Made by a program: the position numbers and the translations under genes. From positions 1 to 35,143 of the forward strand of contig CAJWIY010000019.1 of the NCBI GenBank assembly GCA_913042205.1: a stretch of DNA of 35,143 nt. Reading direction: 5' to 3'. Positions 24,880 to 29,284 of the stretch are shown here, one piece after another. Source of the DNA: an uncultured Gammaproteobacteria bacterium (GTDB lineage Bacteria > Pseudomonadota > Gammaproteobacteria > Pseudomonadales > Litorivicinaceae). The number at the start of each line of letters is the position of its first letter. Within the stretch, counting starts at the first letter, position 1. A model generated the notes under the pieces. The model saw nothing but the letters and a program-made list of their open reading frames with translations. It was not told where the DNA came from and did no database searches.

Positions 24880-25515
24880 TTAAACACTAGGTTTACCTTT
24901 ATATTCACAGAGGTCGGAAATTAGACAATTAGGACAGTCTGGTTTACGGGCTTTGCACACATAGCGGCCGTGCAAAATCATCCAATGGTGTGCATCCTTT
25001 AAGAATTCCCGTGGAATCAGGCGTACCAGGCGGTCTTCGACTTCTCTGACATCTTTGCCCGGAGCGATTCGTGTCCTATTTGCGAGCCGGAAAATATGGG
25101 TATCGACAGCCATAGTAGGCTCGCCAAATGCCGTGTTCAGAACCACGTTGGCAGTTTTACGACCAACACCTGGTAATGCCTCCAACGCGTCGCGAGTCCT
25201 CGGAATTTCGCCCCCATACTTATCAAGTAAAATAGTACAGGTCTTCATCATGTTCTCTGCTTTCGAGTTATAGAGGCCGATGGTTTTAATGCAGTCTTTG
25301 ACGGCCTCGATACCGAGGAGAAGGATGGCTTCTGGTGTATTCGCCTTCGCGTAGAGCTTGCGTGTGGCCTGGTTTACCGAGACATCGGTCGCTTGTGCAG
25401 AGAGTAGAACCGCGATTAAGAGTTCAAATGGTGTTGCCCACTCGAGCTCTGTTGTTGGATTAGGGTTTTGATCTCTTAGACGTGCAAAAATTTCCGCACG
25501 GATATCCCTGTTCAT
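24880..25515 (-). CDS. nth: Endonuclease III, DNA glycosylase/AP lyase
   Basis: Base-excision repair enzyme for oxidised pyrimidines. The 211 residues match E. coli Nth in length. Helix-hairpin-helix [12 protein letters not shown] with catalytic Lys120, the conserved Asp138 in [11 protein letters not shown], and the [4Fe-4S] ligands Cys187, Cys194, Cys197 and Cys203 are all in place. The ATG overlaps the rsxE stop as ATGA. It is the last gene of the rsx operon, the same linkage as in E. coli and many relatives. Confidence 0.98.
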
Positions 25516-26129
25516 GGGATATCTCCAGTCGTTCGAACTCGACGGTATTGGGTATTAGGTTGAGGTTTTGACCTGAATCGTTTGAGTATTTTCTGAATAG
25601 CTTGATGTAGAGCGATCAGCATACCAAGGGCGATAAACGCCCCAGGAGGTAGGGCCGCCAGAATAATGGTGTCTGAGGCCCACTCTCGGATGGCGCCGAG
25701 GCTGACCAGCACCAAGAAAAAACCGAGACCCTGGGCTAGACCATCCATAGTACTGACAAGTAATGGTTCCCGTCGGGCGAGTGCCTCAGCACGTCCGAGT
25801 ATCAAACAATTGGTCACGATAAGTGGCAGGAAGATACCGAGTGATTGATACAGGGGGTAATCAAATGCTTGAATCAATAGCTCTGCAGAAGTGGTCAGTG
25901 TCGCAATCACGAGAACAAAAGCCGGCAGACGGATCGCCTCATCCACGAGGTGTCTAATCAGGCTAATTGATGCATTGGATATAACCAACACAAAAAGTGT
26001 GGCGAATCCAAGACCGATCGCGTTGTCCACGGTATTGGATACCGCTAGGAGCGGGCACAGTCCTAGTAGTTGAATCAGCCCCGGATTTCGGTCCCACAGA
26101 CCGTCGAGCCAGACTGTGGCGAGCCTCAT
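25512..26129 (-). CDS. rsxE: Electron transport complex subunit RsxE/RnfE
   Basis: Six-helix membrane subunit of the Rsx/Rnf complex. The paired cysteines that, with those of RsxA, hold the intramembrane [2Fe-2S] cluster are present: Cys25 in [12 protein letters not shown] and Cys108 in [13 protein letters not shown]. Length 205 is normal, and the C-terminal basic segment is usual. ATGA overlaps join it to rsxG upstream and nth downstream. Confidence 0.96.
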
Positions 26130-26725
26130 TTTTCACCCCCCACAATCTCAGGATGGGTTTCAACATAGGCCAGCGTCTTCGCCAAGGCGTTGACAACAGC
26201 CCGTGGTGTTATGGTTGCACCAGTAAAGCTATCGAACTGTCCACCATCTTTAGCCACAGCCCATTCCGTAGGACTGAGATCCACATATCGCAGACCATTG
26301 AATTGCAAAATCCAATCGGTTTTTCGGGTATCGATTTTATCACCAAGTCCCGGTGTCTCCTTGTGATCGATCGCTCGGACCCCGACGATTCGTCGCTCGC
26401 GGTCAAGCGCGAGCAGTAACTTGATCGTTCCACTGTACCCATCGAGAGCTCGAAATGGGATCACCGCACCGATCTGTAGTTCGCCGTCATTGATTGGGGT
26501 AACCGGTAATGGGTTGATGAGTGAAACCGGTGCGTTGCTAGTTAACACTTCATTAACCGGGTTACCGATTCTGCCATCGTTGAGGAGGGGCTCGGCGAGC
26601 GAGTATAGCCGCTTAGTCCGCGCCTCTTCTTTGGATTCAATAATCATGGGCTCCGTAATCACGTAAATAACGCTGACAAAGACACCGGCAATTAGGCCAA
26701 AGAGTGCGAGGCGAAGGGTCATCAT
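26126..26725 (-). CDS. rsxG: Electron transport complex subunit RsxG/RnfG
   Basis: Periplasmic flavoprotein subunit with one N-terminal membrane anchor (about 4-24). FMN is attached to Thr171 in the motif [17 protein letters not shown]. The [11 protein letters not shown] segment (121-131) is typical of FMN-binding domains. At 199 residues it is standard. Overlaps by 4 bases with rsxD and rsxE. Confidence 0.96.
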
Positions 26726-27738
26726 CGTCCCCCCGAGCCCTTTACACTGGACTCACGGCCTATAATGCGTGGTCTTGTGTAGTGATCAATCGTGGGCGCG
26801 GCGAAGTTCATCAGCAGCACCGAAAAAGCAATCGCATCCGGATATTGTCCGTAGGTCCTAATGAAGTAGGTTAGAAGACCAACACCGATCGCAAAACAGA
26901 GCCGTCCCCTGGGGCTGGTCGCTCCCGAGACGGGATCTGTCAGAATGAAAAACGCGGCGAAGATGCCCGCTCCTGCGACTAGGTGAACCCACACAGGTGT
27001 CGCGGTGTCGGGATCGACACTGAAAAATCCGGTAATCACAATCAGCGTGACCAAGAGCCCGACTGGGGTATGCCAGGTGATAACACGCTGATAGATGAGC
27101 CACAGGCCACCGATCAGGTAGGCCAATGCAGCCCACTCATAGCCATAAATAAAACCGAGATGGGCATTAGTAAAGAGTGGATGATCTGATGCCTCTATTG
27201 CAGTTAACGAGAGGAATTCGGTCCTGTAGAGATCCAGCATGGTGGCGCCTGTAAGCGCATCGTTCGCCTGACCAACGTACGCTACCCAGGCAGCGCCGAA
27301 GCCTGGAGTTGTTAACGGGTTTATCCAGAGCGTTGTCATCGCCACGGGCGCTGAAATCAGCATCAACGCATATCCGAGCATGGCAGGGTTAACAGGATTT
27401 TGACCAAGACCCCCGTAGAGGTGTTTGCCAAGAATGATTGATGAACCACTCGCGGCGACGGTTAACCACCATGGTGCTGCCTGAGGCAGTGACAGAGCGA
27501 TCAGGACACCCGTGAGTGCAGCCGAGAGATCCCTGAGGCGTGGTCTCAGTGCGCGGCCACGCAATGACACACAGAGCGCCTCTGCAGCGACCGCTGTCAG
27601 GACAGCGGTCACCAGATTAAATAGAACCCCCGGCCCAAAAAAGATCGTCATGGTTACGATACCTGGAATCAATGCCAGCAATACGGAACGCATCACGGTT
27701 ACGGTATCCCGAGGTGGATAAGCAGGCCGCTTGATCAT
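26722..27738 (-). CDS. rsxD: Electron transport complex subunit RsxD/RnfD
   Basis: Multi-helix membrane subunit carrying covalent FMN, with Thr166 in ALTGATMLD as the attachment site. The helices and the [21 protein letters not shown] loop (104-124), [13 protein letters not shown] and ISLP-like segments are typical of RnfD/NqrB. At 338 residues it is close to the usual 350. It follows the rsxB-C fusion with an ATGA overlap; no rsxC gene lies between, where it would be expected. Confidence 0.96.
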
Positions 27739-28706
27739 GAGGCCGCTTCCCGGGCCTTTCTGGCTTTTTCCAAGGCCTCGCCGCTTTTCGTTTTGCGTGC
27801 CGCACGTTTTAGGTCCTGTTCCGCGGCGATTCGTTTTAACCGTAGGTTACGATTCTCGAATCGTTCTCGTGCCTCTGATGAAAGTTTTCGTTCGATCAAA
27901 ACTTGTTTGGCCTGAAACTGACCAAGACGAAACCATTCAGCGAGAGGGATATGACTCGGACACACTGCATTGCAAGCGGCGCAATCAACACAGTCTGTAA
28001 GGCCCTCGTGGACTGCGTGATCTAACGCTCCTCCTTTCAGAGCAAATAGCATCAGTTGTGGTTGCAGGCGGACGGGGCACACGGTGGCACATGCGCCACA
28101 ACGGATACAGGGTGACTCTGGTTGAAGCTCGACCCCTCTGGACCGGTCTGATGAAATTAAATCGGGATGCTGTGGCATCCAGAAATCTGGTGCTTTTGGT
28201 CTTGGAACCATGTCTATGCAATCCACAGGACAGGGGTCAACGCATAAATCACAGCCTGTACAGTCATCGATAATGACGGTGTGCATGAGCTTGTTGGCGC
28301 CGACGATTGCGTCCACCGGACATGCCTGAATACACTTCGTGCACCCGATACATTCTTCTTCGATGATGAGGGCAACCAGGTCCTGGTCGACGATGTTTTC
28401 ATCAGCGTCTAGCACGAGAGAGTCGGTACCCAGAAGATTCGCTATACGATCAACCGTGGCTTGCCCGCCCGGTGGACAACGATTTATCGCCTCTCCATCC
28501 GCTATGGCTTCGGCATAGGGAAGGCACCCTGGGTGCCCGCACTGGCCGCATTGCGTTTGCGGTAGCAGTGCGTCGATAGAATCGACCAAGGGATTTCCGT
28601 TGACCCTGCATGCTTTTGATGCCTGGTGAAGTAAGGCTCCTCCGATCAAACCGATCGCTGAGAGCCCGAGGACGCCTAAGCCGATTGACATCATAGACAC
28701 TGTCAC
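27735..28706 (-). CDS. rsxB: RsxB/RnfB fused to the C-terminal iron-sulfur part of RsxC/RnfC
   Basis: The 323 residues compare with about 190 for ordinary RsxB. Residues 1-30 form the membrane anchor. The Fe-S domain has Cys53, Cys56, Cys61 and Cys77 ([18 protein letters not shown]). The double [4Fe-4S] ferredoxin uses Cys119/122/125/129 and Cys149/152/155/159 ([24 protein letters not shown]). After a linker at about 168-197, the sequence [13 protein letters not shown] (Cys200/203/206/210) and [17 protein letters not shown] (Cys239/242/245/249) reproduces the two cluster motifs of RnfC, followed by the RnfC-type charged tail ([14 protein letters not shown], 279-292). The RnfC NADH/FMN-binding, barrel-sandwich and SLBB parts are absent. 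GTG start overlaps the rsxA stop, and the stop overlaps the rsxD start. The fusion keeps all cluster ligands, so it looks functional. Residue assignments are seen; the functional meaning is inferred. Confidence 0.93.
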
Positions 28707-29284
28707 GATCGGGTCATCCCGCTAAAGCCCATGAACGCGAGAGCCATAAAACCAGCAGTAATCAGCGCAACTGAGGCACCTCGGAATGGTTCGGGAATAT
28801 CGGCCAGTTGTAAGCGCTCTCGGACCCCTGCAAACAATATCAAGACCAACGAGAACCCTGACGCAGCACCAATCCCATAAAATACGGATTCCGCAAGCGT
28901 GTGGGCCCGGTTGGTGTTCAAGAGAGCGACTCCCAAGACAGCGCAATTGGTCGTGATCAGTGGAAGATAAATACCAAGCACGCTGTGGAGTAGTGGTGAC
29001 GCCTTCTTTACGGCGAGTTCGGTAAATTGAACGGCTACAGCTATAGCGACAATGAAGGCCAACGTCCTCAGCCACATCACGTCCAATGGAATCAGCAAAA
29101 GACTCTGCAGCAGATAGGCCGCGACAGACGATAATGTGAGAACAAAGGTCGTAGCGATTGACATACCGAGGGCACTGTCAATTCGTGACGAGACGCCCAT
29201 AAACGGACAAAGCCCGAGAAATTGGACCAATACGAAGTTGTTGACCAGGGCTGCTGAAACAATTAGCAGCAATAAATCTGTCAA
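28703..29284 (-). CDS. rsxA: Electron transport complex subunit RsxA/RnfA
   Basis: Six-helix membrane subunit, 193 residues, normal length. It contributes Cys26 ([11 protein letters not shown]) and Cys114 ([15 protein letters not shown]) to the [2Fe-2S] cluster shared with RsxE. The start is a TTG with GGAGA about seven bases upstream, and it overlaps the TGA of a 27-codon ORF as TTGA, so translation may depend on coupling. The stop overlaps the fusion gene as GTGA. Confidence 0.95.

Follow-up and report, generated by a model that had tools for sequence, protein, structure and literature searches.

A Gammaproteobacterial rnf operon with an RnfB-RnfC fusion that lacks the NADH-binding half of RnfC

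Introduction

Bacterial Rnf is defined as a ferredoxin:NAD+ oxidoreductase, and SoxR is the proposed target of Rsx in E. coli. Here we describe an rnf operon that raises the question of which electron partner such a complex would have when the NADH-binding half of RnfC is missing. The operon lies in a window of 35,143 nucleotides (the whole of the stretch analysed, contig CAJWIY010000019.1) from an uncultured member of the Litorivicinaceae. A first-pass annotation of the window had read one gene of the operon as RsxB joined in frame to the cysteine motifs and charged tail of RsxC, and had proposed a membrane complex that exchanges electrons with a partner other than NADH bound on RsxC. We examined the gene and its operon, the genome to which they belong, and related loci across the class.

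Results

The rnf operon and its fused rnfBC gene

The gene order on the minus strand of the window is rnfA - rnfBC - rnfD - rnfG - rnfE - nth, with the following features:

28703..29284 (-): rnfA, upstream of the fusion; TIGR01943 264 bits, cut-off 229; membrane Cys26 and Cys114
27735-28706 (-): fused rnfBC gene; single 323-residue frame, GTG start, no inner stop
28164..28706 (-): RnfB part, residues 1-181; TIGR01944 242 bits; PRK05113 above cut-off; Pfam FeS and Fer4_21
28133..28142 (-): joint of the fusion, the putative deletion site relative to the closest unfused relative; DNA alignment with L045 (G011)
27738..28142 (-): C-terminal RnfC part, residues 189-323; PRK05035 positions 357-484; 8ahx_C residues 368-487
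26722..27738 (-): rnfD; TIGR01946 333 bits, cut-off 207; flavin Thr166; 4-base overlap with rnfBC
26126..26725 (-): rnfG; TIGR01947 155 bits, cut-off 102; flavin Thr171
25512..26129 (-): rnfE; TIGR01948 216 bits, cut-off 213; membrane Cys25 and Cys108
24880..25515 (-): nth-like gene, its product presumably endonuclease III (Nth); 4-base overlap with rnfE

RnfA, B, D, G and E all score above their curated cut-offs within this one operon, which places it in the Rnf/Rsx family. RnfD is above the rnfD cut-off and below the nqrB cut-off, and neither NqrF nor NqrB was found in the rnf operon of the window, so that it does not belong to Na+-NQR. The sequence motifs of the Rnf/Rsx feature set are present: the flavin threonines of RnfD and RnfG, both in TGAT motifs, the four membrane cysteines of RnfA and RnfE, and an ApbE elsewhere in the genome (247 bits, below the cut-off of 498). 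These threonines and cysteines are intact, and rnfBC ends 4 bases into rsxD, as the first-pass annotation had it. No partner gene linked to the rnf locus was found, and no neighbour gene is conserved.

The RnfB part of the fused protein comprises an N-terminal helix, an Fe-S domain (Cys53, 56, 61 and 77) and a ferredoxin domain (Cys119-129 and 149-159). Residues 6-178 match RsxB PRK05113 with 248 bits (cut-off 203) and residues 12-181 match TIGR01944 rnfB with 242 bits (cut-off 69). The RnfC part consists of two four-cysteine motifs (Cys200, 203, 206, 210 and Cys239, 242, 245, 249) followed by a long charged tail. Residues 188-315 match RsxC PRK05035 at positions 357-484 (E 5e-32) with nothing upstream, and the score of 111 bits is far under the cut-off of 345. 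Against TIGR01945 rnfC the protein reaches 74 bits with a cut-off of 246, and it is therefore not an RnfC with an NAD(H)/FMN half. Pfam (E 0.01) lists only Fe-S domains for the fused protein, and none of RnfC_N, Complex1_51K or SLBB. The in-frame fusion of 323 residues, the place of each cysteine and the missing NADH-binding half had all been described from the letters of the window, and the analysis bears out each of them.

The two [4Fe-4S] motifs of the RnfC part align to those of 8ahx_C, 7zc6_C and 9eri_C. By sequence the C-terminal part corresponds to residues 368-487 of A. vinelandii RnfC (8ahx_C), a region that takes in the long helix described at the C-terminus of this protein (PMC12174285). 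A structure of the fused protein predicted from a 7-row alignment was poor (mean pLDDT 51, pTM 0.27).

Searches for the NADH half elsewhere in the genome

We searched the genome of the window (2.02 Mb, estimated 98.4% complete) for an rsxC, or its NADH-binding half, at another locus. Complex1_51K (PF01512) had no match, and since NuoF carries the same domain, NuoF was not found either. RnfC_N (PF13375) had a single match of 29.7 bits, which is the NqrA of a separate nqrABCDEF-apbE operon on contig C43. The presence of an RnfC half elsewhere in this genome was thus rejected for both domains, in line with the earlier reading.

The same search for RnfC_N was made in 12 genomes with a fused gene, four of the genus, three of distant groups and five from the class survey described below. 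In all 12, RnfC_N was absent or matched at the level of NqrA only (E 9e-7 or weaker): G016, G057-G059, G304, G320 and G434 had no match, and G000, G007, G017, G345 and G421 had weak matches, of which the one in the genome of the window was identified as NqrA. No RnfC-N frame is present in any of the 59 fused loci.

Sodium-translocating NADH dehydrogenases have been reported in OM252 / 'Ca. Halomarinus', the genus of the window, in a paper whose available text makes no mention of Rnf (PMC8269220). Given this report and the Nqr operon of the genome, NADH oxidation would be served by Nqr.

A deletion at the joint and selection on the fused gene

In the closest unfused relative (G011) rnfB and rnfC are separate genes. 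In a base-by-base alignment to its locus (L045), the rnfB match ends and the rnfC match begins at 28133..28142, and ~1,092 bases of L045 are missing. A single deletion of ~1.09 kb explains the window gene relative to G011. By codon arithmetic the missing bases span about the last nine rnfB codons, the rnfB stop and about 355 rnfC codons. The Complex1_51K, RnfC_N and SLBB domains of the G011 RnfC are all gone from the window gene.

The RnfC of this relative (L006) has a changed glycine loop in its NADH/FMN half, GLSGASFP, where L005 and L007 have GLGGAGFP. Eleven RnfC rows from the genus keep 47-62 of 70 conserved positions, the median of 70 in the other rows being given by construction, as the columns were chosen as conserved there. 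The loop and the lower number of conserved positions are suggestive only, and the NADH half may have been degenerating before its deletion.

The same fusion recurs in three congeneric genomes, at 95, 86 and 85% protein identity, and the four genes differ by many silent changes. Pairwise dN/dS of the fused genes is 0.17-0.20 in five of the six pairs, the wider ones, and 0.43 in the closest pair; for the RnfC part it is 0.11-0.27, and 0.47 in the closest pair. These values point to purifying selection on the fused gene within the genus, and not to a slip of assembly. An assembly deletion had been named beforehand as a threat to the reading of this gene, and because three congeneric genomes share the fusion, assembly error is excluded. 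Those records of the fused form that carry a name are metagenome bins, which would speak for an artefact of assembly or binning, or for a pseudogene. The many silent differences among the four genomes of the genus rule out an assembly artefact, and with at least 59 genomes of several lineages carrying the fusion, any explanation of this kind is exceedingly improbable.

Distribution of the fused form and conservation of its residues

A survey profile was built from seven fused proteins, and candidate frames were then fetched and checked. Of 97 relatives of G058, at least 36 have a fused single frame, as do at least 14 of 95 relatives of G057 (the unfused genomes being partly common to the G058 set). 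An even sample of 370 genomes from the class yielded at least 6, and RnfD was above its cut-off in 223 of the 370. The fused frame occurs in at least 59 distinct genomes and several gene lineages; in two of them (L154, L218) the locus ends inside the RnfB part and truncates the frame. Confinement to one assembly would have counted against the first-pass annotation, and the fusion is not so confined. Two further genomes of the class survey, G424 and G520, have RnfD (E ~1e-100), no RnfC_N match and weak matches to the RnfB-C profile (E ~1e-9).

Across the aligned fused proteins the RnfC part has each of its eight cysteines without exception (58/58), and the RnfB-part cysteines are kept in 57-58 of the 58. 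RnfA adjoins the fusion in 56 of 59 loci, the other three loci being cut, and RnfD follows directly in 50. For the nine loci without an adjacent RnfD, longer stretches revealed D 3-7 kb downstream in four; in the remaining five the stretch ended without an RnfD being found. In L231, L233 and L234 (G186, G165 and G172), several kb of other sequence lie between the B-C fusion and rnfD, followed by D, G, E and nth. In L236 (G434), ~3 kb of other sequence separate the fused B-C with RnfA from RnfD and nth, and no RnfG or RnfE was found between the latter two.

RnfD, RnfG and RnfE are present in all 16 fused loci of the first survey that reach nth, and the motif threonine of RnfG is present in each of these (15 [ST]GAT, one VGAT). 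Among fused-locus rows, RnfA has Cys26 in 53 of 56 (two His, one gap) and Cys114 in 55 of 56, RnfE has its membrane cysteines at both positions (24/24), and RnfD has Thr166 in 49 of 50. Thr171 of RnfG is seen in 28 of 46 rows, the other 18 being gaps of the trimmed alignment.

Number of origins and other reduced forms

It had been suggested that homologues with the same RnfB-RnfC order might form a clade lacking RnfC. An RnfC-N frame lies in 0 of 59 loci, and the single clade does not hold: placing all fused rows in one clade lowers the log-likelihood by 266 and is rejected (p-AU 9e-72). The quick tree of RnfA plus the RnfB part contained 52 fused and 59 canonical rows (111, after thinning from 175) and showed 8 label changes, at least 5 of which are forced by starred branches. 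A tree of RnfA only, which lies outside the fused gene, showed 9 label changes with at least 5 forced. Long branches in the quick trees that are unsure are L166, L201, L210, L211/L212, L220 and L221/L222. With at least five forced changes, the fusion appears to have arisen several times on the gene trees. The tree itself is blind to gain versus loss, and repeated deletion is much likelier than regaining a lost half together with splitting of the gene.

Eight loci (L191-L196, L198, L199) all carry B, nth and a short RnfC encoded by a gene of its own. RnfD was found in five of them and RnfA weakly in two; RnfG and RnfE were found in none of the eight. The RnfD-like protein of L192 is short, and the TGAT motif was not seen in it. 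In L219-L225 the N-half of RnfC is retained, full or shortened. Losing the NADH half is one stage of a reduction series, and the eight short-C loci suggest that reduction can go on to a form that may no longer pump.

Where a fused locus extends 3,600 bases or more beyond the B frame, nth lies downstream in every case (5 of 5); at 2,250 bases or more it does so in 16 of 17, the miss being L204, which is cut in rnfE. The nth gene is near rnf in all eight short-C loci and in 41 of 66 canonical loci, and is a usual rnf neighbour, not special to the fusion or to the reduced forms. A redox connection of Rnf to Nth, an Fe-S enzyme, is conceivable.

The C-terminal tail of RnfD has a median of 15.5 residues in 48 fused loci as compared to 24 in 74 canonical loci. 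Of the independent pairs, one differs in the same direction, none in the opposite direction and two show no difference, and the tail is not shortened in the genus of the window. Short RnfD tails occur in unfused neighbours too (L080, L219-L222). With no support from independent pairs or from this genus, we set aside the shortened tail as a sign of lost RnfC contact.

Discussion

Relation to known systems

The window form shares with the solved RnfABCDGE/RsxABCDGE complexes (8ahx of Azotobacter vinelandii, 9eri of Acetobacterium woodii and 7zc6 of Clostridium tetanomorphum) the subunits A, B, D, G and E, the cofactor residues, the gene order and the two RnfC clusters. It differs in that its RnfC is without the barrel, FMN/NADH and SLBB domains, the remainder being fused behind RnfB. 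Judged by sequence, it is Rnf-like up to the RnfC clusters and fails in the defining NAD(H) feature. The Rnf of Methanosarcina acetivorans is described as having no interaction with NAD or NADP while keeping RnfC for two 4Fe-4S clusters (PMC4023990; PMC12174285). That complex has six subunits, a multihaem cytochrome and a separate RnfC (the NCBIfam model rnfC_Methano has 438 positions), whereas in the window RnfC is cut and fused and the operon has no cytochrome gene. Na+-NQR has a homologous membrane core, and its NqrA is a relative of RnfC that lost its cofactors. It keeps the fold and lost the clusters, while the window form keeps the clusters and lost the fold, in an operon without nqrF. 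Proteins of the RsxB-type NCBIfam families PRK06991 and PRK08764 share the N-terminal RnfB domain; the window protein falls below both cut-offs, and its second half is RnfC-derived and lies within a full rnf operon.

No description of an RnfB-RnfC fusion, or of a bacterial Rnf without the NADH half, was found in the open-access literature, a weak absence as most subscription papers and all bioRxiv preprints lie outside it. In the available parts of PMC12718326, PMC4287430 and PMC11208148, 'RnfBC' refers to operon names or cloning constructs. An NAD-independent Rnf is already in print for M. acetivorans, and the fused bacterial form is undescribed in the literature searched.

A complex that may trade electrons with a soluble carrier

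The reading that we prefer, with about an even chance of being right, is a working Rnf/Rsx-type complex whose RnfC clusters would trade electrons with a soluble carrier and not with NAD(H). Its basis is the architecture of the operon, the missing NADH half in the genomes searched, the repeated origin of the fusion, the invariant cluster cysteines and the purifying selection within the genus; from these we infer assembly, electron transfer, pumping and the choice of partner. The proposal that the complex has an electron partner other than RnfC-bound NADH gains support from the lack of an RnfC NADH half in the genome of the window and from the presence of the fusion in at least 59 genomes and several lineages.

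In solved Rnf the two RnfC clusters link the riboflavin of RnfD with the FMN of RnfC (PMC12174285). From the complex of A, B-C, D, G and E the NAD(H)- and FMN-binding half of RnfC would have been excised, and the retained RnfC clusters would still wire the RnfD riboflavin to the cytoplasm, now covalently tied to RnfB. The exposed RnfC clusters would most likely be the point at which electrons enter or leave, by way of a soluble one-electron carrier; an example is a ferredoxin, which an Fpr-type NADPH reductase might charge. The other end of the electron path would be RnfB as usual, with the ion-translocating core unchanged, and a possible chain is NADPH - Fpr - ferredoxin - complex. The genome encodes a 108-residue ferredoxin (L230), which we take to be of the FdxA kind, and an Fpr-like reductase (L228) of 243 aa that scores 147 bits, far below the NCBIfam cut-off of 390. 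The clusters of RnfB and RnfC are >30 A apart and the C-terminal helix of RnfC contacts RnfB (PMC11889175); since the fusion retains the wire and this helix, it need not short-circuit the B and C clusters.

Several points stand against a working complex of this kind: the unlinked partner, the score of the Fpr-like reductase, the closest pair with dN/dS 0.43, the loci without D or without G and E, and a result from Bacteroides. There, altering the NAD-binding residues of RnfC abolishes Rnf function (PMC12718326), so the canonical complex depends on them.

We also considered reduction of SoxR as the function, which is unsupported in the genus: a search of 16 members, incomplete genomes among them, gave no SoxR above cut-off, and the genome of the window has only a 43-bit relative. 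RseC is present in that genome (58 bits).

Other functional readings

NAD(P)H could still be the ultimate partner if an unlinked flavoprotein dehydrogenase docked on the exposed RnfC clusters. Three FNR-fold matches occur in the genome, NqrF and the Fpr-like reductase included, and Nqr uses a module of this type, NqrF (PMC11889175). No neighbour gene is conserved at the fused loci, though, no RnfC_N protein that would fill the space was found in the genomes searched, and the genome of the window has no 51K protein; the difference in RnfD tails (15.5 versus 24), unsupported by independent pairs and absent in the genus of the window, lends no help. We consider a docked dehydrogenase rather unlikely. 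The quinone, reached straight from RnfD as in Nqr with the RnfC clusters merely structural, is a much weaker candidate. RnfD and NqrB are homologues, and a derivation of Nqr from Rnf, in which RnfC lost its cofactors, has been proposed (PMC4014512). Yet all 58 aligned fused proteins have the cluster cysteines that NqrA lost, RnfD is described as lacking the quinone-site helices of NqrB (PMC12174285), and the genome already has Nqr. Electron transfer to quinone by this route is very improbable.

The series of reduced forms is the main argument for reductive decay, in which there would be no pumping or NAD(H) balance and B plus C would act as a polyferredoxin that only feeds Fe-S enzymes, perhaps Nth. 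The eight short-C loci, which retain B and nth along with RnfD in five cases, RnfA in two and G and E in none, fit such decay, as does G434, where fusion, D and nth remain without G and E between D and nth. The nth gene downstream of the fused loci (5/5 and 16/17 at the two lengths) and the GLSGASFP loop in the RnfC of the closest unfused relative, as compared to GLGGAGFP in L005 and L007, fit as well. However, D, G and E are kept with their cofactor residues in 16 of 16 nth-reaching fused loci of the first survey, 41 of 66 canonical loci likewise have nth downstream, and G and E may be overlooked through divergence. Decay to a polyferredoxin is, on balance, an unlikely account of the fused form.

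Implications

A 2025 review raises the open question of why SoxR is reduced through Rsx and an ion gradient, given that NADH would suffice (PMC12174285). The fused form bears on this question, as the complex is kept though SoxR is not above cut-off in the members of the genus searched. Repeated loss of the NAD(H) site with every cluster cysteine kept would mean that the site is dispensable and that another electron partner exists. We tentatively suggest, at somewhat less than an even chance, that NAD(H) is not an essential partner of Rnf in many Gammaproteobacteria, and that these bacteria have an NAD(H)-free class of the complex, with at least five origins, from which the NADH half was excised and in which the cluster wire was kept. 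Such a class may act as an ion-coupled carrier-to-carrier oxidoreductase, with ferredoxin or flavodoxin at both ends.
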